This document shows, one piece after another, positions 1,561-40,551 of a DNA stretch of 40,551 nt (positions are counted from its first letter, which is position 1; every line of letters begins with the position of its first letter). Both the position numbers and the translations under genes were made by a program. The DNA is from a virus. The stretch covers positions 1 to 40,551 of IMG/VR virus record IMGVR_UViG_3300044733_001520, one strand, 5' to 3'. The notes under the pieces were generated by a model. It worked only from the letters and a program-made list of their open reading frames with translations, was not told where the DNA came from and did no database searches.

Positions 1561-3531
1561 ATGCCTTCATCATATTCATCTAACCTTAGACTCGAACTCA
1601 TCGCCTCGGGTGAGCAGGCCAATACGTGGGGCAACACCACCAACACCAATCTAGGCACGTTGCTGGAAAGTTCTATCGCAGGGCGTGTAGAGCTCTCTTC
1701 GGGTTGGGTGGCTAACTCACTTACGCTGACGGCGCTCAATGGTGCTAACGATCAGTCAAGGCAGATGTGTCTGGTGGTCCCGGCTATTACGATCAGTGCA
1801 GACTCAAACATCGTGGTCCCCGCCAGTGCGGTCACAGCCTCATCGGGCAAGCTATATACCGTCATCAACCGATCAACATCTTATGCGGTCACGATCAAAC
1901 TCTCAGCCACTACGGGCGTAACGATTCCAGCCAACACGACGAAGACGGTCATCTACAACGGCACGGATTTCCAAGAAGCCTTTACTGCGCTGAACTTCCT
2001 TACACTGACAGGCACCCCCACGGTCAACGCACATGCCGTAAACAAAGGCTATGTAGATGGGAAATTTTTCATCAATGCAGGGGCCAATACCGTCACGGGC
2101 AACACTACATTTACAGGCACCGTCACTCTGCCCGTAGCGACACCCACAGGCAACCAAGCCACCTCGTACAACTACGTCAATAGCAACTATTTGTGGAAAG
2201 CGGCGGGTGAAAGCACTCAGACCATGATCCCTAGGCTGAAATTAACCCAAGCGGCTGTTGATAATGATGATGTAATCACTAAAGGATACGCAGACAGTAA
2301 CTTTGTAGGGCTCACCACTGTCCAGACGATTTCTGGCACTAAGACATTTTCTACAAATGTCTCCCTAAGTGGCTCCGCGCAGCTTATTCTCCCCAACGCT
2401 CCCTTGAGTGGCACTCAGGCTACCAATAAGAGCTATGTAGATGGAGAGATAGCGGCGGCGTCATCTCTAGCCGCGAGCACTTTTGTCCCCCAGACGAGGA
2501 CCATTACAGTAGGCACGGGGCTTCAGGTCAATGGCACGGCGAGTGCGGATTTGAGTGGAAATATCAATCTTCAGCTTGTTGGAGGAGGTACGGTCACTTC
2601 GGTTACGGCAACTTCTCCTTTGACCGCTACAGGCACTACGGCGGTTAATTTGTCCATGAATATAGCCAGCACTTCACAAAACGGCTATTTAACCTCCACG
2701 GACTGGAACACGTTTGACGGCAAATGCGATGCTAATGGTTCCAACGCTTCGGGTACTTGGGCCATCAGTATTGCAGGCAATGCCGCTACCGCTACGAATG
2801 CAACAAACGCTACGAATGCAACAACAGCCACGACAGCTACAAACGCCACGAATGCGGTAAACGCTACAAACGCCACGAACGCTACGAATGCGGTAAGTGC
2901 CACGACAGCTACAAACGCTACGAATGCAAATGCTTTGGGCGGTGTAGCCGCTAGCGGTTACGTACTAAAAACCGGCTCCACGATGACTGGGGCGTTAAAT
3001 GTTCAGAATAGCGGTTCTCCATCAGGGTATGTTAGTGTTGATACGGTCTTTAATGGCGCTGATTACTTCCCTGCTGTTTTATCTGTCAATACCGCCGCTT
3101 CTACCTATAGACCAATAGTATTAGCGCAAATAAGCACTTTAGGCACTTATGAAGTTAGATTAGCCATAGGCACAGGGGGCGCTGTAACGATATCTAACTT
3201 AGCTGCTGGCGGTACTGTCTCTGCAGGGGCGGGCACAGGCACACTAACGGTATCCTCAGACCAAAACTTAAAAATAGCTGACGGTTTCATAGAAGATGGC
3301 CTCTCTAAAATAGATGCGCTGCAACCTCGTTACTTTTATTGGAAAGATGAAGAGGGTAATGCTAACCTTGAAGAAGGAAGGCAACTAGGTTTTTATGCTC
3401 AAGAGGTGCAAGCAGTTAGCCAAGAAGCCTCTCCAACGGGGCAAGGCATATATGATAGAGCGATAATTGCTATGCTGGTTAAAGCCGTGCAAGAACTCAA
3501 AACCGAAGTAGAAGCCCTTAAAGGAGCCTAA
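1561..3531 (+). CDS. Tail fibre with C-terminal S74 intramolecular chaperone
   Basis: This 656-residue fibre has a β-rich N-terminal half with 'NKGYVDGKF', 'TKGYADSNF' and 'NKSYVDGEI' spaced modules typical of phage fibres. An Ala/Thr/Asn triplet-repeat linker follows (about 409-458), then a 'TGSTMTGALNV' repeat. The last 92 residues are a peptidase S74 (endosialidase-type chaperone) domain starting SSDQNLK at residue 565. Family knowledge says this domain drives trimerisation and then cuts itself off before a Ser, using a Ser/Lys dyad; S565/S566 and K571 are the candidates here. It ends in a coiled coil (AVQELKTEVEALK). The likely role is host receptor binding at the virion surface. Confidence 0.88.
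   Translation: MPSSYSSNLRLELIASGEQANTWGNTTNTNLGTLLESSIAGRVELSSGWVANSLTLTALNGANDQSRQMCLVVPAITISADSNIVVPASAVTASSGKLYTVINRSTSYAVTIKLSATTGVTIPANTTKTVIYNGTDFQEAFTALNFLTLTGTPTVNAHAVNKGYVDGKFFINAGANTVTGNTTFTGTVTLPVATPTGNQATSYNYVNSNYLWKAAGESTQTMIPRLKLTQAAVDNDDVITKGYADSNFVGLTTVQTISGTKTFSTNVSLSGSAQLILPNAPLSGTQATNKSYVDGEIAAASSLAASTFVPQTRTITVGTGLQVNGTASADLSGNINLQLVGGGTVTSVTATSPLTATGTTAVNLSMNIASTSQNGYLTSTDWNTFDGKCDANGSNASGTWAISIAGNAATATNATNATNATTATTATNATNAVNATNATNATNAVSATTATNATNANALGGVAASGYVLKTGSTMTGALNVQNSGSPSGYVSVDTVFNGADYFPAVLSVNTAASTYRPIVLAQISTLGTYEVRLAIGTGGAVTISNLAAGGTVSAGAGTGTLTVSSDQNLKIADGFIEDGLSKIDALQPRYFYWKDEEGNANLEEGRQLGFYAQEVQAVSQEASPTGQGIYDRAIIAMLVKAVQELKTEVEALKGA
2788..2933 (+). repeat. 9-nt based tandem repeat coding (Asn-Ala-Thr)n
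   Basis: About 145 bp consist almost entirely of AAY-GCN-ACN triplets in tandem (for example acaaacgccacgaatgcg), encoding NATNATNATTATTATNAT-type sequence in the tail fibre. Synonymous third positions vary, so the amino-acid pattern is conserved better than the DNA. Any slippage of 9 nt would keep the frame and change linker length. Such linkers are common before the C-terminal part of phage fibres. Confidence 0.8.
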
Positions 3532-20519: not shown

Positions 20520-23471
20520 CTAAAGAGGTGTGTCAATAGGATCGTCTGCTTTTGACAGCATATCGACATCGAACAGGTAGCACGGGACGGGGGCTGTGGA
20601 ATAATTTGCCGTTGCTTCACCTAGATTCGTGGTTAGTTCTTCTATCAACGTGCCGGATGACGTGAGCCCTTTCATTACTTGTAGGGTAGGCATGCGCTTG
20701 GTATTCAGCCATCCTACAAAGTCGGAAACGGAGATATACAGGCGACGAGTCTGCACCTCATGCCGACCCTTGAGAGCGCCGATGACAGGCTTACTGACGG
20801 ATTGATTCATTAGCGCATTATCCACGTCAGTCTGTCCACTCTGCACCACCAGAATCTGATGTATGAACTCATTCCAGTAACGGTTCACAGCGCTTGCATA
20901 CGAGCTTCCCTCTTGAATCATTGAGGCTTTTTGTACCGCAGTACGAGTCTCGGTGAACAACTCTATGGCCCACTCCCATACAGGCTCAATGGGGATATTG
21001 ATGATGCCCAGACGGTTAGCTATCTCTCCACCCGCAAAGGCTGCTGCCATACACCCAGAATAAAATCGCTCCTTGCCTTTTGAGTCCACTTCCGCATCAA
21101 ATCTACGCCGTGTGTCTAGGAGCTTTTCACGCACATTCTCAATGTTAGGCACAACGTACTGCATATAGGGCTCACACGCTAACCCATAGTTGTTTGGCAG
21201 TAGTTGACCGAATAGCTCATCCGCCTCTGCTTTAGTGAGGAGGTCATCATTCTCTACGGGCACTTGCAGTATGCGGAGCATTTCGCCTTCGACAGATTCT
21301 TTGTATTGCTTCAGCACCCCATGCAGGCTGTTGTTACCAGAGGTCAGAAAAATCGTAGCCCATGTCGTGTCATTGGTGCGCTCCATGTTGTCATGAGTTC
21401 TTAGCCGGTTCTTGCCTCTGCCTGATGATAGGTCAAAACTAAAGCGGCTTACCGCTTCTGGCAGCATATTAGTCACTTCGTCTATACATGCCGGGATATT
21501 GTTTAGTACCCCCGCCCTATGCAGCTTGGCGTTCACCGTGTCGTTGTCGGTCAGCATACCCCGTATAGGATCACCCCAGATGCTGGTAACGGCTTTCTGC
21601 AATGTAGACTTACCCACGCCTGATGCTACGTTAGTCAGATGGACGATCATGCTCCCTTCACCGATGAACTTATACAACGGAGCACCGAACCCACAGAACA
21701 GAGCAAAGGCTCTAGCCTCATTTCCTTTACTAGCATAGGTGTTCACAACCTTCTGCCAGTTCTCTAGCTTGCCTACTTTTGCGTAAATCTCAGCGATTGA
21801 TTGCGCTCCTTTGGTAATAGGGCTGTGGCCGATAGTGCCTGTGTCATTTACCTCTCTATTGCCAATAACAAACCGTGTGTCGTTGTCATGCCATCCGAAC
21901 TGTTTACGGGCGTTTGCGGCTTTGCCGTCATCTTGCAGCTTCTTTGTCCATGCTCCGATATAGCGACGAAGTAACTCAAGCCGTTTGTTATTTGTGACTA
22001 CATGCACTCCCTTGGCAGCAAGGATATCTCGTAGGGTGTCCATTTTATATAGATAGGCCAGCGGAGCCGTGACTTCAGATAACCCGTCATTCGGCAAACA
22101 AATACACAGCGTAGCATACTCCTGCTCTCCGTCTTTCGATCTATCCTTTACCCACAAGTCGCGTTCGTAGACCATGAACTCGTCAGGATCATCACCACTG
22201 TCAGGATTATCATTTTCTACACTGCCTCTATAAGCTACCCCGCCACCTTTCGGGCGTATCCAAGGAAAAGGGTAGTCAGTAGGAATTTCTACGGAGACAG
22301 TCTCGTTCAGCCCTTCATGCTTGACCTCAATGATGTGCTCTTCTGGTAGTGCCTCTTCTATCACTACACCCAAGGATATAGGCGATGTGATTTTGCCCTT
22401 GTGTATACAGGCGCTACAGAGTTGAGGATGATTGAGCTCCTTCCATTTCTCACAGGTGCGAGGTCCTTCTGCTCTACTCGCCTTGGCAAACCATTCATCA
22501 GGTTCAGTGCCGGGGTAATCCCTCGACACCATATCAATCCCTTCGACTCTATCAATACAGAACTGCGCGATGGATAGCGCAGCATGCCACATGGGTTCTT
22601 CTAGGGTTGCTCGATTAGATACACAATAGGCGATCTGTGGGCACCCAGCACTGCGTTCCACTTTTCTTTTTACCAGACGGTCAATCTTGGTGCCATCTGC
22701 CTGCTCTATCTGCTCAATAGTTTCTTCGACGCGCTCAATGGTATCAATGCTTTTTTTGTAGATTCTGCTAAATTTGAATGTGCGGCTTACCTGCATCAAC
22801 TTCTCCATGACAGGATCGGCTGAGTGAACAGGAGAGTAAGCCTCGCGTGATACATACCCTACACAGGCTGAAAAATGCGCTAGGGTTATAGGGTCTGCGA
22901 CTCGTTTAAGTACGACTTTCTTATGGTTGCTGTCGCGTTTTTTGTTCGTGGTGTTCGGGACTCGTAAGATTCGCGCTCCATCTGCCGTCACTACAGGATC
23001 GGCCTTTAGTTCTAATTCGTGAGTTTTGCGTTTGAATGCGTCAGCTACAGGCTTCCATGTGTTGTACTCTACAGCGGCGTTTAAGCTCCAATAGGCATGT
23101 ACTCCGAAACCGGAATCGACCAGTGTGGGGAGCGGGAGTTTGATCGTGTCACAAAATTTCTGAAGAGCCTCAATAGCCTCCTTCTTGGTCAGGTAGCCGT
23201 TCTCCTTGCCGCAGTCTAGGTCAAGATAGAAGCTCTTGAGCGCTTGGATATTTTGTACGTTTTTTGGTTTGTCTTTGTTTTGGAATGTGGCACAGGCGAA
23301 GTAAACCTCTCTGCCTTCCTCATCCATTGAGGCTATTGTCCTTGCTATTTCTGGATCGCCTTGCTCGAAGTAGCGCACCTTTGGCATGGCTGAGCGATCA
23401 CTCCTCAAACCTGTTAAGCAGAGCAGACCATCCTCGGCCAATACGGTGTTAAATAATGTTTCTGGTTCCAT
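20520..23471 (-). CDS. Primase-helicase: AEP-type primase fused to SF3/D5-like AAA+ helicase
   Basis: The N-terminus has archaeo-eukaryotic primase signatures: SFYLDLDCG with the metal pair D84/D86, DSGFGVHAYW at about 119-128, and DPVVTADGARILRVPNTTN at about 158-176. A cysteine-containing segment follows (C...C-x2-C in CEKWKELNHPQLCSACIHKG), possibly zinc-binding. The C-terminal ATPase has Walker A VASGVGKST (K621), Walker B IPACIDEV and a sensor-like TIFLTSGN. A GGCAGGGAGC-ATG start supports initiation at 23471. It should synthesise primers and unwind the fork for the family A polymerase. It is the last gene of the leftward transcript. Confidence 0.82.
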   Translation of the reverse strand: MEPETLFNTVLAEDGLLCLTGLRSDRSAMPKVRYFEQGDPEIARTIASMDEEGREVYFACATFQNKDKPKNVQNIQALKSFYLDLDCGKENGYLTKKEAIEALQKFCDTIKLPLPTLVDSGFGVHAYWSLNAAVEYNTWKPVADAFKRKTHELELKADPVVTADGARILRVPNTTNKKRDSNHKKVVLKRVADPITLAHFSACVGYVSREAYSPVHSADPVMEKLMQVSRTFKFSRIYKKSIDTIERVEETIEQIEQADGTKIDRLVKRKVERSAGCPQIAYCVSNRATLEEPMWHAALSIAQFCIDRVEGIDMVSRDYPGTEPDEWFAKASRAEGPRTCEKWKELNHPQLCSACIHKGKITSPISLGVVIEEALPEEHIIEVKHEGLNETVSVEIPTDYPFPWIRPKGGGVAYRGSVENDNPDSGDDPDEFMVYERDLWVKDRSKDGEQEYATLCICLPNDGLSEVTAPLAYLYKMDTLRDILAAKGVHVVTNNKRLELLRRYIGAWTKKLQDDGKAANARKQFGWHDNDTRFVIGNREVNDTGTIGHSPITKGAQSIAEIYAKVGKLENWQKVVNTYASKGNEARAFALFCGFGAPLYKFIGEGSMIVHLTNVASGVGKSTLQKAVTSIWGDPIRGMLTDNDTVNAKLHRAGVLNNIPACIDEVTNMLPEAVSRFSFDLSSGRGKNRLRTHDNMERTNDTTWATIFLTSGNNSLHGVLKQYKESVEGEMLRILQVPVENDDLLTKAEADELFGQLLPNNYGLACEPYMQYVVPNIENVREKLLDTRRRFDAEVDSKGKERFYSGCMAAAFAGGEIANRLGIINIPIEPVWEWAIELFTETRTAVQKASMIQEGSSYASAVNRYWNEFIHQILVVQSGQTDVDNALMNQSVSKPVIGALKGRHEVQTRRLYISVSDFVGWLNTKRMPTLQVMKGLTSSGTLIEELTTNLGEATANYSTAPVPCYLFDVDMLSKADDPIDTPL

Positions 23472-33134: not shown

Positions 33135-33470
33135 TTAATCCCTTGCTGGCTCGGGGGGATTGTTTTGTTCTGCCAAGCATTTGCGCATCAGTTGTCTTAA
33201 TTCCTGAACGCTCAAGCTTCCTTCCTCCAGCGCCTGCAACGCGGTTCTGGCTATAGCCACCATCAAGGGTATCACTCTATCAACTGCGTCCCACTCGTCT
33301 TCTTCAGTATCTTCTAGTGCAGCTATTTTTTCCAACGCCTCAACCAACCCATCAACGATATCTGCGCGTATATAGGGTTCCCCTACATCCTTAAACTCTC
33401 TACACAAAACGGTAGGCCAGCAACCCTCTTCGCACTCAACCCAAATCTTCTTCGGTTCTCGTTGCTTCAT
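33135..33470 (-). CDS. Small hypothetical protein (111 aa)
   Basis: ATG 33470 overlaps the upstream stop by 1 nt (TAATG-type). The N-terminal part (EPKKIWVECEEGCWPTVLCR, EFKDVGEPYIRADIVDGLVE) is a short β domain with three cysteines, followed by helices (VEALEKIAALED; VIPLMVAIARTALQALEEG). 'YIRADIVDGLVEALEKIA' is a common ending of small phage proteins where a strand leads into a coiled helix. Function unknown. Confidence 0.6.
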   Translation of the reverse strand: MKQREPKKIWVECEEGCWPTVLCREFKDVGEPYIRADIVDGLVEALEKIAALEDTEEDEWDAVDRVIPLMVAIARTALQALEEGSLSVQELRQLMRKCLAEQNNPPEPARD

Positions 33471-33724
33471 TATTCTTCCTCCACCCTTCTATACTCAACA
33501 CATTCAGCTTCCCCCTGCATTATTGCCATCGCTTTCATCCACGCTGCGTAGGCTTCACCTGCGTCTGTGATGCGCTGACCTAGGAATACCATTCCATCTT
33601 TGTCCAGCCTCATGATTTCTTCGTTCTGTGGCTGGAATATGACGAAACTGTGGGGTGCTATATCAGCGCTGGAAAAAATGCCAGCCGGTAGGTCTTCATT
33701 TTTCACGATCAATTTAGTGTCCAT
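33470..33724 (-). CDS. Small hypothetical protein (84 aa)
   Basis: The frame is open far upstream through the glycine/tyrosine-rich gene, but GGAGAAAGCA directly precedes ATG 33724 and the protein-like part starts here (MDTKLIVKNEDLPAGIFSSA). β-rich segments (HSFVIFQPQNEEIMRLDKDG) are followed by GEAYAAWMKAMAIMQGEAE, a helix typical of small phage proteins. The initiation region resembles that of the gene at 34399 (shared AAAGCAATGGACAC). Function unknown. Confidence 0.62.
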   Translation of the reverse strand: MDTKLIVKNEDLPAGIFSSADIAPHSFVIFQPQNEEIMRLDKDGMVFLGQRITDAGEAYAAWMKAMAIMQGEAECVEYRRVEEE

Positions 33725-33742
33725 TGCTTTCTCCATGTAAGG

Positions 33743-33759
33743 CCCGCGTCGTTCGCGGG
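33743..33759 (-). other. GC-rich stem-loop after the Gly/Tyr-rich gene
   Basis: CCCGCG / CGCGGG forms a 6-bp stem with a 5-nt loop in the 40-nt gap between two minus-strand genes. No U-tract follows on either strand, so it is not a classic terminator. It may limit RNA decay or control initiation of the downstream gene, whose Shine-Dalgarno lies about 10 nt away. Confidence 0.4.
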
Positions 33760-33764
33760 GTTCT

Positions 33765-34112
33765 TTATCTACGCCTATCGCGGTTGTGTGCTGTGCCTTC
33801 GCCGTAGCCATATCCTCGACCGTCGTCGTAGCCATATCCGTCACCGCCGTTGCTATACTGGTAGGCGTATCCGTTGCCGTGGCCGTTGCCGCTCCTGTTG
33901 CCGTAGCCGTAGCCGTAGCCGTCGCCGTCCCAGTAACCGTCAACGCCGTCGTGGTTTTTCTGGTAGTCAGCGCCCATCCAGTAGCCGTAATTGAAACCGT
34001 CACCGATGCCGTAACCGTCATTGAAACTGGGGCCGTGGAGACTGCCTTCATTGAAACCGTGGCCGTCGCCGATGCCGAAGCCGTCGCCGAAGCCGTTGCC
34101 TATCAGTTTCAT
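33765..34112 (-). CDS. Gly/Tyr/Asp/Asn-rich low-complexity protein (115 aa)
   Basis: ATG 34112 overlaps the stop of the upstream gene (ATGA), so I use it rather than a TTG three codons earlier. After MKLIGNG almost all the sequence is G-x dipeptides, such as GDGYGYGYGN and GRGYGYGEG, with Tyr, Asp, Asn, Phe and His alternating with Gly, ending in a basic tail (NRDRRR). The DNA is a degenerate GGNTAY-type repeat. Similar glycine/tyrosine-rich proteins occur in other phages beside the same upstream family, but no role is known to me. Such aromatic-glycine sequences tend to be disordered and may phase-separate. Confidence 0.68.
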   Translation of the reverse strand: MKLIGNGFGDGFGIGDGHGFNEGSLHGPSFNDGYGIGDGFNYGYWMGADYQKNHDGVDGYWDGDGYGYGYGNRSGNGHGNGYAYQYSNGGDGYGYDDGRGYGYGEGTAHNRDRRR

Positions 34113-34399
34113 AGGCCCCAATCCTTATGAACTGGAACGCAGAAAATCTCCGATATTTCCGGCAGTTCAACATCCTCGCAAGGGCGTATGTCAGCATGTG
34201 ATGTATCTTTGACCATTCCGGCGAAACCTACTGAGTGCCACTTGAATACCCAAACAGCACGAGTGAGATAGATTCGTCCATTCTTGCGCTCTACATCTCC
34301 AGCGAAAATCCATCCCCTATCTACGACGATTACAGCTCGATTACCTTCATGCTTTTTTACGGGTGCATATTCAATGCCGTCGATTGTTATAGTGTCCAT
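34109..34399 (-). CDS. DUF6948-like protein (96 aa)
   Basis: The sequence (VIVVDRGWIFAGDVERKNGR, IYLTRAVWVFKWHSVGFAGM, VELPEISEIFCVPVHKDWG) matches in outline a conserved phage/prophage family that I recall as DUF6948, with the 'DRGWxFxGDV', 'VGFxGM' and 'E(I/V)FxxPV' signatures. It is β-rich and has no known biochemical role. The Gly/Tyr-rich gene overlaps its stop, and this gene pair recurs in phages as far as I remember. It is the first gene after a 164-nt structured intergenic region. Confidence 0.6.
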   Translation of the reverse strand: MDTITIDGIEYAPVKKHEGNRAVIVVDRGWIFAGDVERKNGRIYLTRAVWVFKWHSVGFAGMVKDTSHADIRPCEDVELPEISEIFCVPVHKDWGL

Positions 34400-36535: not shown

Positions 36536-36711
36536 TTGTTTACTGTCCTTTCCATGCGTATGCACACTTGTTCTCCATCTTCTACATCATACTCAGCACA
36601 GGCCCAGTTGCGCTTGTCATAGGTGCCTGACTTTTGCTCCACTGGTATTAGGTACAAAGCTATACCGAGCACAGCCATCCATAGCACATAGCCCCATTTA
36701 TTTGTTGTCAT
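36532..36711 (-). CDS. Short membrane protein with Cys pair (59 aa)
   Basis: ATG 36711 starts within the 3' end of the upstream gene (14 nt shared) and the TGA overlaps the next ATG. A TM helix (WGYVLWMAVLGIALYLIPV, about 6-24) precedes a soluble tail with C38 and C50, spaced for a disulfide if outside the cytoplasm. AAAGGA lies about 9 nt upstream. Topology resembles the 78-residue membrane protein at 32894-33130. Function unknown. Confidence 0.58.
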   Translation of the reverse strand: MTTNKWGYVLWMAVLGIALYLIPVEQKSGTYDKRNWACAEYDVEDGEQVCIRMERTVNK

Positions 36712-36934
36712 TGGGTAAGTGTCCTTTGATAGTTAAATAATATATCTTGCCCGGTAAGTCGGGTTTAAGCCCTATCCCTTGTATCTCATTACCAACCCCC
36801 GCTATGTCTAGCAGGGCCATCGAGGACTGCATCCAGTCGGGTATATCCTTAGTAGATGTTTTTACAGCATCATTGAAATTATAAAGGAGGTATCTGTCTT
36901 CTAAGGACTCTACCCGTATCCTAGCTGCTCTCAT
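36698..36934 (-). CDS. Small hypothetical protein (78 aa), coupled to the VWA gene
   Basis: ATG 36934 overlaps the TGA of the VWA/metallopeptidase gene as ATGA, which decides this start over one 20 codons earlier inside that gene. The protein begins RAARIRVESLEDRYLLYNFN, continues DIPDWMQSSMALLDIAGVGN and ends YYLTIKGHLPNDNK. No family is recognised. The strict overlap suggests it is made in step with the VWA protein and could be a partner. Confidence 0.58.
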   Translation of the reverse strand: MRAARIRVESLEDRYLLYNFNDAVKTSTKDIPDWMQSSMALLDIAGVGNEIQGIGLKPDLPGKIYYLTIKGHLPNDNK

Positions 36935-38067
36935 AGCTCCATAGTCAGGCTCGTTCCAATGGGGGCGGATAGCCCTTTTGTTGTTATTGCCCATAGTGTT
37001 GGATGCTCTATAGTTTCCGGGAAAGGTGTGTAGCCATCTGTTAGTACGATAATTGCTTCTGGTTTAAGATTGTTTTTCTGCACGTACTTGAATATCTCAC
37101 GCATGTCTGTGCCACCGCCACCATGCAACTCTGTAATAGCCCCTAGCTGGTCTAGGGAACCTTGGTCGAAGACCTTGTGTGATTGTATGGTAGCGTCACA
37201 CTCAAGCAAATGCAACAGTTCAGGAGAAACATTTTGACAGATGCCCACCACCTCGGATAGAAACGCTGACACCATCGGCCCCGACACACTACCACTTGTG
37301 TCCACACCTATCACCAAAGCACCCATAGACTCAGAGATGGATGACGGCATATACATATCCTCACCCAGCCATCTGCGGTTCGGCCTGCGCCATGTAGAGT
37401 CATCATGCCCCTGAGATACAGTACTCATGAACTCCTGCAACTGCTCACGCCAGTCGATCTTGGGGGCAGTCAACTCGCCTATCACACGGCTCTCGTCGCC
37501 ACCCATCTTGCCAGCCATGAGCGCACCTTGACGTATGGCCTGCTCTACCTCTTTACCTAGTTGGGCCTTGTCCTCCTCAGATAGCTGGTCGAACTCATGC
37601 TCATCGAAGCCGCCCTCACCACCATCCTCACCCTCTTCCTTGAGCCTGCGATACACCTCACCTGTATCCATACCTCTGAAGTCCTTACGGTACAGCCCAC
37701 TCTGGGGCAGAGCGATGAAGCCGGGATGCTCCTTCTCTAAGTCCTTGATCTCTACGTTGATGACGTAATCAGCCGCCATGTTTGCCAGCTTGGGGTTCTC
37801 CTTCCATAGATGCTTCCACAACCACGCATGTTGGTAAGCCTTGTGTAAGTTCTCATGCAGCACCACCCCAGCCAGCTCCTGCTCTGATAAGCCCTCAACG
37901 AAAGCCCTGCCGTACATCACATCACGACCATTGGTACACGCGGTAGGTATTGTGTCCGTTATCTTTGAATCCCCCACCATAATCAAACCAGAGAAAGCCA
38001 TCGTTGCCTTGTGTCCCATGAGCCTGACGTGGGACTTCTGTATGCGTTGCTCTGCTGTTAAGTTCAT
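36931..38067 (-). CDS. DUF2201-type protein: metallopeptidase-like domain plus VWA-like domain
   Basis: GGAGAGAAGCA precedes ATG 38067 (378 aa). The N-terminal half has LAGVVLHENLHKAYQH, an HExxH-type site (H71, E72, H75), and ANMAADYVINVEI, the second hallmark of DUF2201 putative metallopeptidases. An acidic linker (GEDGGEGGFDEHEFDQLSEE) follows. The C-terminal VWA-like domain has the MIDAS residues DTSGS (D256, S258, S260), GGGGTDMREI and IIVLTDGY. Such proteins typically pair with MoxR/CobS-like AAA+ ATPases, and one is encoded about 0.9 kb upstream. The expected role is an ATPase-driven remodelling or proteolytic machine; its target is unknown. Confidence 0.85.
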   Translation of the reverse strand: MNLTAEQRIQKSHVRLMGHKATMAFSGLIMVGDSKITDTIPTACTNGRDVMYGRAFVEGLSEQELAGVVLHENLHKAYQHAWLWKHLWKENPKLANMAADYVINVEIKDLEKEHPGFIALPQSGLYRKDFRGMDTGEVYRRLKEEGEDGGEGGFDEHEFDQLSEEDKAQLGKEVEQAIRQGALMAGKMGGDESRVIGELTAPKIDWREQLQEFMSTVSQGHDDSTWRRPNRRWLGEDMYMPSSISESMGALVIGVDTSGSVSGPMVSAFLSEVVGICQNVSPELLHLLECDATIQSHKVFDQGSLDQLGAITELHGGGGTDMREIFKYVQKNNLKPEAIIVLTDGYTPFPETIEHPTLWAITTKGLSAPIGTSLTMEL

Positions 38068-38084
38068 TGCTTCTCTCCTATAAG

Positions 38085-38354
38085 CTAACAATTTATGACG
38101 TAGCCTTTCCTAAAATACCGTACATAGGATTTCCATACGGATAACTGGGTCCATCCTCCTAACCCATCCACAAAAACCCCTTCGTCTAGGAGGTCAATCA
38201 TGTAAAGCGCGTGCTGTTGTTCTTTAGACAGCCTGTCTACGTATCTAGGCCTAGCACAGATTACTAGGTTGGTTAGAAACTGTTTGCGCAGCGTTCCCTC
38301 TGGATAATACATGGTGTTTTTCCATATCTTTATAGACCTTTTATCTCTCTCCAT
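38085..38354 (-). CDS. Small hypothetical protein, paralogue A (89 aa)
   Basis: The gene starts 3 nt after the previous stop. The C-terminal half YVDRLSKEQQHALYMIDLLD, then GVFVDGLGG and GYVINC, aligns with YVDELTKRQQNAINLIRIAE, HFIESIGC and VYILDC of the protein at 38712-38966. Both begin MER(D/E)(K/R) and end in a Cys. I do not recognise the family. Its place between the VWA and AAA+ genes makes it a candidate component or substrate adaptor of that system. Confidence 0.65.
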   Translation of the reverse strand: MERDKRSIKIWKNTMYYPEGTLRKQFLTNLVICARPRYVDRLSKEQQHALYMIDLLDEGVFVDGLGGWTQLSVWKSYVRYFRKGYVINC

Positions 38355-38357
38355 CGC

Positions 38358-38681
38358 TCACTTCCTCAATAAAGCAAAGTCCTTGGGGTCCATGATCGGC
38401 GCACCTGCTTGTCTATTTCTAATCGCGTCACTCCACACCATGTAGTCAGAATCTGTCATACCCTCGCAGTCATAGTCGGGGGCCTTGGCTATCTCTACTG
38501 GCCCCATTTCCCAAGAACGTATGCAATACACACTCGGGTTGCCCTGCCCACAATAGACAGAATCTACCTTTACCGCATGTTCAGCGAGTAGTGCCTGAAC
38601 CTTATGCGCTACGTCCAACGGCATGGTCAGCGTGGTATAGCTGAACGTCATCGAACCATATACTTCTTTCTTGCTTTTCAT
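38358..38681 (-). CDS. Hypothetical protein between the paralogues (107 aa)
   Basis: AAAAAAGGAG stands about 6 nt before ATG 38681, which I prefer to the ATG two codons earlier. The protein is α/β: VYGSMTFSYTTLTMPLDVAH, a helix (KVQALLAEHA), VYCGQGNPSVYCIRSWEMGP and an acidic segment (PDYDCEGMTDSDYMVWSDAI). Four cysteines are spread without a clear motif. The Shine-Dalgarno directly abuts a palindrome (38693-38711), suggesting regulated translation or transcription. Function unknown. Confidence 0.62.
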   Translation of the reverse strand: MKSKKEVYGSMTFSYTTLTMPLDVAHKVQALLAEHAVKVDSVYCGQGNPSVYCIRSWEMGPVEIAKAPDYDCEGMTDSDYMVWSDAIRNRQAGAPIMDPKDFALLRK

Positions 38682-38692
38682 TGTCATCTCCT

Positions 38693-38711
38693 TTTTTAGA
38701 CCGTCTAAAAA
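38693..38711. promoter_or_regulatory. Palindrome copy 2 in an intergenic gap: TTTTTAGAC-C-GTCTAAAAA
   Basis: A perfect 9-bp inverted repeat with a 1-nt centre starts right after the stop of paralogue B and ends one base before the GGAG of the next gene (minus strand). It is the same site as 36327-36349. It could be an operator or an RNA hairpin partly covering the ribosome binding site. Confidence 0.6.
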
Positions 38712-38966
38712 TCAACAATCCAGTATGTAAACCGAGCCCTTATGCCCGCTCATTCTGCATCCAATACTCTCAATAAAATGCCCGGGTTCTGCTATACGAA
38801 TTAGGTTGATAGCGTTCTGTTGACGCTTGGTCAGCTCGTCCACGTATTGCCCTCTGGCTTGGTAGTATTTAACTAGAAGGTGTCCGTGTGCGATATCGTA
38901 AGCGTCCCTTAATCTGTTCCTTTCTTCTGCCGTTGCTTTGTACACTACCAATCTCTCTCGCTCCAT
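38712..38966 (-). CDS. Small hypothetical protein, paralogue B (84 aa)
   Basis: ATG 38966 is preceded by GAGGTG. A longer TTG-started version would overlap the AAA+ gene's stop and is not needed. Sequence MERERLVVYKATAEERNRLR, then YVDELTKRQQNAINLIRIAE, then HFIESIGC...VYILDC is homologous to the 89-residue protein at 38085-38354. The N-terminal half is a long helix and the C-terminal half a small α/β unit. Function unknown. It is encoded directly after the AAA+ ATPase. Confidence 0.65.
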   Translation of the reverse strand: MERERLVVYKATAEERNRLRDAYDIAHGHLLVKYYQARGQYVDELTKRQQNAINLIRIAEPGHFIESIGCRMSGHKGSVYILDC

Positions 38967-38974
38967 ATCACACC

Positions 38975-40054
38975 TCAAGAAAAGAGGAAGCTATTTTTCG
39001 CAGCCCACGCGCTAAACTCTGTGTTAGTCGTAGCTATGCCTAATTTTTGAGAGCGCATGATGCTTCTGGCGAACAGGGCTTGGGCTTCTTTGCTCAGCCT
39101 ATTTATATAGGTGAACGCTCTGTCGAAGTCTTCCCGCTCGACTCTTTGAATCACCTTGGATATGACCATGCACGATGCTGCTGCACCCTTGGGGACCTTG
39201 GCTACATCTGGGTTCTTAATCACTTGTTCCCATGTGGGTAGCTCCTCATCGAGCTTGACCAGCGTCAGTATATCCATCGCTGCGGCTTCGCCTACTGTAC
39301 CCATCAGTGCATGAATGCGTACCTCGTCCGACAGATGCTCCGTACTCTTTAGTATATCCGATGCTTTCTCCAACGATCTTGGAGTGACACACGCCGTCCT
39401 CGGCTGCTTAGGATGATTGATATAGTGATTAGAGTTGGGGTCTTCTACTTCCTCAAAGCTCTGAAACATGGCGGGGAACTCAATCGCTGCGCCTAGTATA
39501 ACTGGATGCACCCCGGCATTAAGAGCGTAACCTTCTACCCATTCCATCGCCGTTGGTTTGCGTATCTTGGCTTGGCACAGTCGGTTCCTAGCATGGGGTG
39601 GTATGCTGTCCCCAAGACCTTCGATTGAGAGGTTGGTCGTAGCAAACACCATACTACCCTCGGGCAAGGCATACTCTCCGATCTTGCGCTCCAACATAAT
39701 CCTAAGCAGCGCATTCAGCACAGACTTGCTGGCTTTACCTAGCTCGTCCAACATGAGAATGATCGGCTGACCCAAGTGAACACCCAGCGCCTCGTTGGGT
39801 ACGAACGACACTACCTCCTTACCCTCAATAGTCCTAAACTTCGGCATCTGTAAGTCACCCAAGTCGAGCATCTGTGCCTCAAGGTATACCGGCTTATGGT
39901 CAGGGTACCTCCCTGCCAGCGTCTTCAGCATCGAACTCTTGCCTATCCCGAGCTCCCCCGTAAACAGGCACGTCACCTTATCCCCCACCGCAGCAATTAA
40001 ATCCGTAGCCTGTGCCAGTGTAAGGGAACCGTATGTTTTGTTGATCTTGCTCAT
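38975..40054 (-). CDS. MoxR/CobS-like AAA+ ATPase
   Basis: This 359-residue ATPase has Walker A TGELGIGKSS (32-41), Walker B PIILMLDELGKA (D103, E104), a sensor-1 Asn in MVFATTN, and an arginine-bearing SIPPHARNRL segment. YLEAQMLDLGDLQMPKFRT (57-75) resembles the MoxR/CobS-type insert. A C-terminal helical lid and an α-helical tail follow. MoxR-type hexamers work with VWA-domain partners to load metals or remodel complexes, and the partner here is the DUF2201-VWA protein at 36931-38067. AAAAGGAGAGCTATA-ATG supports this start, which overlaps the previous stop (TAATG). Confidence 0.87.
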   Translation of the reverse strand: MSKINKTYGSLTLAQATDLIAAVGDKVTCLFTGELGIGKSSMLKTLAGRYPDHKPVYLEAQMLDLGDLQMPKFRTIEGKEVVSFVPNEALGVHLGQPIILMLDELGKASKSVLNALLRIMLERKIGEYALPEGSMVFATTNLSIEGLGDSIPPHARNRLCQAKIRKPTAMEWVEGYALNAGVHPVILGAAIEFPAMFQSFEEVEDPNSNHYINHPKQPRTACVTPRSLEKASDILKSTEHLSDEVRIHALMGTVGEAAAMDILTLVKLDEELPTWEQVIKNPDVAKVPKGAAASCMVISKVIQRVEREDFDRAFTYINRLSKEAQALFARSIMRSQKLGIATTNTEFSAWAAKNSFLFS

Positions 40055-40278
40055 TATAGCTCTCCTTTTATTACTGCCGTTAAATTGTTTAGTGTGTACC
40101 TAGCTCCATCTGGTGTATGGGTAACACCCGCGTCATTGAGAAGCCCTAGCATCCTAGCCGCTGCCACGCTAGCTTTTCTCCTCTTTGCTATACACTGCAT
40201 CATCAGTAGGTATAGGGCTTCGTCATTTAGTATCCATGAACACACATTATCCTCCGTCCACCCTGCTGGATTTCTCAT
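40054..40278 (-). CDS. Small hypothetical protein (74 aa)
   Basis: The ribosome site TTGGAGAAGAGCA-ATG is strong and matches that of the MazG-like gene for 16 nt. The stop overlaps the AAA+ start (TAATG), so the two are translationally coupled. Sequence NPAGWTEDNVCSWILNDEAL, then YLLMMQCIAKRRKASVAAAR, is helical with a positively charged middle and may be a small DNA-binding or adaptor protein. Family unknown. Confidence 0.62.
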   Translation of the reverse strand: MRNPAGWTEDNVCSWILNDEALYLLMMQCIAKRRKASVAAARMLGLLNDAGVTHTPDGARYTLNNLTAVIKGEL

Positions 40279-40294: not shown

Positions 40295-40310
40295 TTAGAC
40301 GCCTAAAAAT
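40295..40310. promoter_or_regulatory. Partial third copy of the palindromic site
   Basis: On the minus strand ATTTTTAG-GC-GTCTAA (40310-40295) matches the arms of the two perfect palindromes but has a 2-nt centre and an incomplete second arm. It lies just before the GGAGAAGAGCA start of the gene at 40278 and includes the stop codon of the gene at 40303. It is weaker evidence than the other copies. Confidence 0.4.
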
Positions 40311-40551
40311 TCAACTGGAATTTGCTCAAAAGATCATCCAAGTCCTGCTTCACCATCTCTCTCGCACCTGTGTCCTTGCGCAAGTCCTTCACATCCAAGC
40401 CCAGTACAATGCCGCGTAGCTCCTTACGCAGGTCGTCAATCTCCTGATCTTTGGTGAGGTTCAATCCATTTATAGCGTCACATAACTCAACACACGTCTC
40501 AAGCGTCGTCTCATGCACTCGTCCTTTCTTACCATCCGGCTCAGTGCGTAG
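40303..40551 (-). CDS. Hypothetical coiled-coil protein, 5' end beyond the window
   Basis: The frame is open from the window edge (LRTEPDGKKGRVHETTLETC) to TAG at 40305-40303, giving at least 82 residues. A GTG at 40518 could start a 71-residue form, but AAGGA lies only 3 nt before it and the upstream sequence is protein-like, so I treat the gene as truncated by the edge. The C-terminus is helical and charged (LTKDQEIDDLRKELRGIVLG, EMVKQDLDDLLSKFQ), probably a coiled coil. Function unknown. It is the first visible gene of the leftward operon leading into the AAA+ locus. Confidence 0.55.
   Translation of the reverse strand, partial: LRTEPDGKKGRVHETTLETCVELCDAINGLNLTKDQEIDDLRKELRGIVLGLDVKDLRKDTGAREMVKQDLDDLLSKFQLNF

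Follow-up and report, generated by a model that had tools for sequence, protein, structure and literature searches.

A MoxR-class ATPase, an HExxH-VWA protein and a DUF3150-like protein encoded by a viral locus: a probable phage form of a module carried by mobile elements

Pairs of genes encoding a MoxR-type AAA+ ATPase and a protein with a VWA domain are already known from several mobile elements, viz. N4-like phages, in which the functions of the core genes gp24 and gp25 are listed as unknown (PMC4193335; the pair also appears in PMC2784036), jumbo phages (PMC7824862), and elements of the pCAR1 type, where the MoxR-like ATPase ORF101 and the VWA protein ORF103 were reported in 2009 to belong to a conserved set of genes shared with R478, Rts1, SXT and R391 (PMC2642839). 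For group 2.2 jumbo phages, Iyer et al. described in 2021 the same architecture of MoxR and metallopeptidase/vWA proteins, and the available text of that paper presents it as a two-gene virion-assembly pair, with no mention there of a third gene (PMC7824862). An interpretation of viral AAA+/VWA pairs as CobST proteins with a role in vitamin B12 synthesis has also been published, CobS being an AAA+ protein and CobT having a VWA/MIDAS domain (PMC8651126). The locus described here is located in IMG/VR virus record IMGVR_UViG_3300044733_001520, whose 40,551 bases, probably a fragment, were analysed at their full length (the window). All genes of the locus are on the minus strand, and they encode a MoxR-class ATPase, an HExxH metallopeptidase-like protein with a VWA domain, and the end of a DUF3150-like protein, with three small open reading frames (ORFs), viz. 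s1, s2 and s3, between the ATPase and VWA genes. An initial annotation of this DNA had regarded the ATPase, the VWA protein and the small genes around them as a complete cassette and as a candidate for an undescribed system. In view of the reports cited above this is too strong for the pair, and the cassette was also not complete, as a third core gene, cut off by the window edge, had been overlooked. The three-gene module as a unit common to phages and plasmids is apparently undescribed in the literature searched, which also yielded no paper mentioning DUF3150 (preprints and subscription journals were outside the scope of this search).

The ATPase gene (positions 38975-40054, minus strand; 359 amino acids) belongs to the N4 gp24 family and matches PHROG_1297 ('ATPase') at E 6e-46, but Pfam AAA_5 only at 2e-4. 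The Walker A, Walker B (hhhhDE), sensor-1 Asn, Arg finger and sensor-2 Arg positions are invariant in 71 homologs with one exception, a single G-to-A change at Walker A position 38, and residues K39, D103, E104, N141, R158 and R226 are present in 71/71. The best profile match among PDB entries is Midasin (E 3e-38). In the AlphaFold model of this protein (pLDDT 92), a beta-hairpin is inserted in helix 2 ahead of Walker B (H65-68 E69-76 E79-86), and the best fold matches are to NorQ structures, including several with the VWA domain of NorD bound (Z 13), CbbQ being also among the top folds. By its residues, profile and fold, the window protein is a MoxR-class AAA+ ATPase. NorQ thus provides its closest solved fold, and NorQ-NorD likewise consists of a MoxR ring with a VWA partner; however, NorQ-NorD serves metal insertion into nitric oxide reductase, and in the available text no HExxH or DUF3150 component is described for it.

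The VWA gene (36931-38067, minus strand) is a member of PHROG_1314 and of the N4 gp25 family. Its protein matches Pfam DUF2201_N at 3e-29 (102.9 bits, gathering cut-off 23.2) and DUF2201 at 9e-21 (74.7 bits, gathering cut-off 26.4), and a fold search identified its C-terminal domain as a VWA domain (Z 12). The metal-site residues H, E, H, H, N and D and the MIDAS residues D-S-S-D are identical in 90/90 viral homologs, and the MIDAS T is found in 88 of these. The identification of a MoxR-type ATPase and an HENLH/VWA protein from their motifs is therefore borne out by the family and fold matches, and the active-site and MIDAS residues pointed out at that time are conserved in the viral relatives. 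When the VWA protein was used in a sequence search of solved structures, weak matches to zincins (MJ1213, M48) and to integrin VWA domains were the only ones obtained, with no solved relative of the HExxH domain. For the start of this gene, the ATG at 38067, with AGGAGAG before it, is likelier than the TTG at 38091 of the longest frame. Due to this, the VWA gene need not overlap s3, and of the tightly overlapping arrangement originally claimed, the three small ORFs between the two genes remain but the overlap with s3 may not. A label of HNH endonuclease, which is carried by PHROG_1314, was considered and rejected, as there is no HNH Pfam match and the two DUF2201 domains span the protein. Across hundreds of GenBank phage records, members of the HExxH-VWA family are labelled as 'HNH endonuclease', 'anti-sigma factor' or 'homing endonuclease', and this labelling is apparently a propagated annotation error.

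The third core gene was found by clustering the neighbours of the pair. Among the 84 viral loci for which the VWA gene was the seed, a family of ~295 amino acids is present beside the pair in 61, and in 73 when a profile search is included. A hidden Markov model (HMM) of the 61 viral homologs matches the open frame at 40306-40551 (minus strand) at E 2e-18, covering profile positions 209-287 of 288, and from this match and its alignment the frame, of ~80 amino acids, is identified as the C-terminus of a DUF3150-like protein of ~295 amino acids. A scan of the neighbours against PHROGs gave few families, and the informative match was to Pfam DUF3150 (PF11348), which is matched by 13 of 100 neighbour proteins at E<=1e-4; the piece in the window is too short to be scored against this model. 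The common gene context supports the link between the DUF3150-like proteins and true DUF3150. A combined alignment was too diverse for a scan of contigs and it was split into separate alignments. When the search was seeded on the DUF3150-like gene and limited to loci with 3.5 kb on each side, the ATPase and VWA genes were both present in 40/40 viral loci and in 38/39 bacterial loci, the latter being mostly from Burkholderiales, with a few from Alphaproteobacteria and Bacteroidota and one from a WWE3 metagenome-assembled genome, so that they are not independent samples; 36 of them show the order ATPase-DUF3150-VWA. The search in this direction is a stronger test of linkage than the search seeded on the pair, and it is clear that in this phage branch and in plasmids the linkage of the three genes is near-obligate.

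For the pair itself, 80 further viral loci were chosen by similarity to the VWA protein of the window, and 68 of these had enough upstream sequence to be assessed. The ATPase gene is directly upstream of the VWA gene on the same strand in 67 of the 68, with a gap of <=100 bp in 27 loci and a median gap of 180 bp. In close relatives, with VWA proteins of 57-77% identity, the order is 'a'-ATPase-s2-VWA-c wherever the contig extends, and a cyanophage carries the three-gene set with small genes interspersed. The order is reversed, VWA then ATPase, in a distant group of loci (L014-L023). Thus, the adjacency of the pair holds for close relatives, but distant phages carry the genes separately (6.4 kb apart in pVa5 and 4.4 kb in Bacillus phage G; in N4 they are side by side) or, as taken up below, on opposite strands. 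N4 gp24/gp25, core genes of the Schitoviridae, resemble the window genes in encoding a homologous ATPase and HExxH-VWA protein in the same order and on the same strand, and differ in that no DUF3150-like gene was found near them, the identity is about 17-23% and there is no s2 between them. No passage on N4 gp24/gp25 was found in the CRISPRi-ART phage fitness paper. In the phage relatives, the module is divergent from the TerL and portal genes and is followed by genes for a VRR nuclease, a DNA polymerase, a RecB-like protein and an SNF2 protein. The genes are at the head of a replication-type operon in these relatives, in agreement with the early-operon position proposed initially. In one close relative (L012:18327-20987), the DNA polymerase gene is split by ~0.8 kb near residue 410-415 (window protein numbering), which suggests an intron, an intein or an inserted gene. 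Further, in IMG/VR loci L035-L113 the pair tends to be flanked by the DUF3150-like gene on one side and by a second family of ~316 amino acids (C1) on the other, C1 being upstream when the DUF3150-like gene is downstream and vice versa.

The same three kinds of genes are present on plasmids. In the annotated plasmids pBcn842-1, pRK1-1 and RHOApb (Burkholderiales/Rhodospirillales), genes for a DUF2201-type VWA protein, a DUF3150-like protein and an AAA+ ATPase are contiguous; these triads have the order ATPase-DUF3150-VWA, in contrast to DUF3150-ATPase-VWA in the phages, and the HExxH motif is lost in some copies. In pCAR1, the gene between ORF101 and ORF103 encodes DUF3150 (E 8e-92). The pCAR1 genes and, by published homology, those of R478, Rts1, SXT and R391 are thus of the same three kinds and lie in one operon, as do the plasmid three-gene sets in each case. 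The pCAR1 VWA protein, annotated NorD, contains both HExxH and MIDAS; however, this type of partner is CobT/NorD-like, of ~600 amino acids, and belongs to a different family with no DUF2201 profile match, and the order is ATPase-DUF3150-VWA. True DUF3150 is found in 1118 plasmid records, of which 969 are typed as conjugative. One example of its surroundings is pABW_S38a, with the order SSB-RecT-exonuclease-hypothetical-MoxR-DUF3150-(IS3 insertion)-VWA, the exonuclease being a lambda-exonuclease. An IncC example shows DUF3150-VWA, with no ATPase gene listed alongside in PLSDB's table, which is incomplete. In SXT, s067, s068 and s070 would be the ATPase, DUF3150 and VWA genes, as inferred from their position and from two papers (PMC2642839, PMC2791158), and the SXT and IncA/C equivalents of the module in general derive partly from published reports in this way. 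The SetCD regulon paper makes no mention of s067-s070. In Vibrio phage pVa5, a gene of the SPFH/prohibitin family lies between the ATPase and VWA genes (L032:9083-10024), and in pCAR1 another is ~11 kb from the triad (L252:6532-7413), which may be a coincidence.

The interpretation that we favour, with moderate confidence, is that this locus represents the phage form of a mobile-element module composed of a MoxR-class AAA+ ATPase, an HExxH-VWA protein and a DUF3150-like protein, acting as an ATP-driven remodeller of the MoxR/NorQ-NorD type at an early stage, when incoming DNA is replicated or established. A wider proposal, which is more tentative, is that a dedicated three-protein machine, not described before as one system, is common to phages and MOBH conjugative elements and remodels a nucleoprotein complex or a host factor during the replication or recombination of incoming DNA, thereby serving the establishment of mobile DNA. 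In NorQD, a finger of the VWA domain enters the pore of the ring and a twisting force is exerted on the partner's linker, according to the available part of a recent report (PMC13036017), and by analogy the window pair may work on the same physical principle. The ATPase would form a hexameric ring, with the VWA protein docked on it in the manner of NorD on NorQ. A client, presented together with the DUF3150 protein (the dedicated third subunit) or by way of it, would be pulled or twisted through ATP hydrolysis; the HExxH metal site may cut this client or merely bind it. The least certain step concerns the client, which may belong to the DNA metabolism of the incoming element, i.e. replication, recombination or an opposing host protein, because the genes are in a phage replication operon and beside SSB-RecT-exonuclease genes on a conjugative plasmid. 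The case for a role in the DNA phase, resting on operon position and on these recombination-gene neighbours, is circumstantial.

Several observations weigh against this interpretation. Of 90 phage homologs, 4 have one extra residue in the metal site (HExxxH), and 7/51 plasmid or chromosomal VWA copies lack the catalytic Glu or the HExxH motif; proteolysis is therefore doubtful as the shared function. The plasmid or chromosomal copies without HExxH (L134, L150, L157-L159, L127 and L170) have the MIDAS, so that of the residues expected to persist in relatives the MIDAS is kept throughout whereas HExxH is not, and peptidase activity is probably optional. A fold search with the whole VWA protein returned the VWA half alone; it is uninformative on the HExxH half, in which a zincin-type fold is putative. 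The viral and Burkholderiales DUF3150-like proteins score 20.9-22.1 bits against the Pfam cut-off of 24.9, or do not match, and are remote from true DUF3150 (hhalign 30-55%). Further, no DUF3150 gene was detected near the pair in N4-like, jumbo and rV5-like phages, and in FV3 the ATPase and VWA genes are on opposite strands. Lastly, deletions in the SXT region containing bet, exo, s067, s068 and s070 reduce transfer tenfold at most (PMC2791158), so that the module, if these are its likely equivalents, is accessory for SXT transfer.

Of the other explanations, the one that Iyer et al. proposed for jumbo phages, a chaperone for virion assembly together with the proteolytic processing of structural proteins, concerns the same pair, and the available text of their paper cites a MoxR-vWA pair that an archaeal virus is reported to need for tail assembly (PMC7824862); virion proteins are also encoded near the gp24/gp25 homologs of the N4-like phage RPP1 (PMC4193335). 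However, bacterial contigs and plasmids, many of the latter conjugative, carry the same three genes, the phages of this branch transcribe the module away from portal and terminase together with replication genes, and N4 gp24/25 are middle genes. The presence on plasmids therefore weakens virion assembly, including the capsid maturation suggested initially, as what the three-gene form does in general, and we consider it unlikely for this locus; this presence should not be interpreted as excluding such a role for the pair of N4 and jumbo phages. A role in host takeover or anti-defence, in which the ring would extract or destroy a host protein and the small genes would provide adaptors, is in agreement with the position at the head of a replication operon, with a core that is constant while the small genes around it vary, and with an occurrence in both phages and plasmids, which face host defence on entry. 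It is likewise improbable, as the distribution of the conserved three-gene core in this branch is not patchy, the small genes are lineage-specific and there was no match in the PADLOC library, although the latter is weak evidence because this library consists of defence proteins. A cobaltochelatase CobS/CobT that works with host CobN and raises vitamin B12, a role put forward for cyanophages and archaeal tailed viruses, is highly improbable (the initial annotation had called a B12 role unlikely), since beyond the domain likeness noted above and a weak match of the IncC VWA protein to Pfam CobT, the CobS/CobT models gave no NCBIfam match at E<=10 for window or N4 proteins and none in Pfam for window proteins, the plasmid triads weaken it in the same way as virion assembly, and to our knowledge CobST has no DUF3150 partner.

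The small genes do not behave as adaptors conserved with the core. The ORFs s1 (38712-38978, minus strand; 88 amino acids) and s3 (38085-38354, minus strand; 89 amino acids) are paralogs (E 5e-8) and thus not independent components, and relatives have one copy or none. Together with c (36698-36994, minus strand; 98 amino acids), which overlaps the end of the VWA gene and is retained downstream of it in close relatives, they align with the C-terminal part of C2, a family of larger phage proteins encoded downstream (hhalign 97%). The ORF s2 (38358-38687, minus strand; 109 amino acids) is found in nine loci only, each time between the ATPase and VWA genes, and b (40054-40278, minus strand; 74 amino acids; PHROG_871 of unknown function, E 8e-8) has no counterpart among the relatives. 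As s1 and s3 are single or missing and s2 is limited to nine loci, the small genes are lineage features outside the core. Of the five to seven genes suggested to occur together, the ATPase and VWA genes do so, but b, s1 and s3 are not conserved and s2 is confined to one lineage. The cultured relative RHph_TM3_14A has the same layout of an ATPase, three small genes and a VWA protein, and its small genes show no detectable homology to s1-s3. A nucleotide search of the locus region against sequenced phages gave no match. Elsewhere in the window, positions 1561-3531 encode a tail protein with a C-terminal Peptidase_S74 tail-fibre chaperone domain, and because the PHROG label of 'baseplate wedge' for it is due to this domain, the label is no guide to the tail type. 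A protein of 983 amino acids with DUF927 (E 3e-27) is encoded at 20520-23471, at the end of a minus-strand operon, and at 33470-34121 (minus strand) there are overlapping low-complexity repeat frames, Thr/Ala-rich and Gly/Tyr/Asp-rich, either of which may be coding.

Based on the interpretation of this locus as a phage form of a mobile-element module, the ATPase-VWA pair is linked through its third gene to conserved genes of unknown function on conjugative plasmids, many of which carry resistance, and this suggests one shared function. In addition, a module shared in this manner makes that function testable in easy systems, viz. laboratory phages and deletion strains of conjugative elements.

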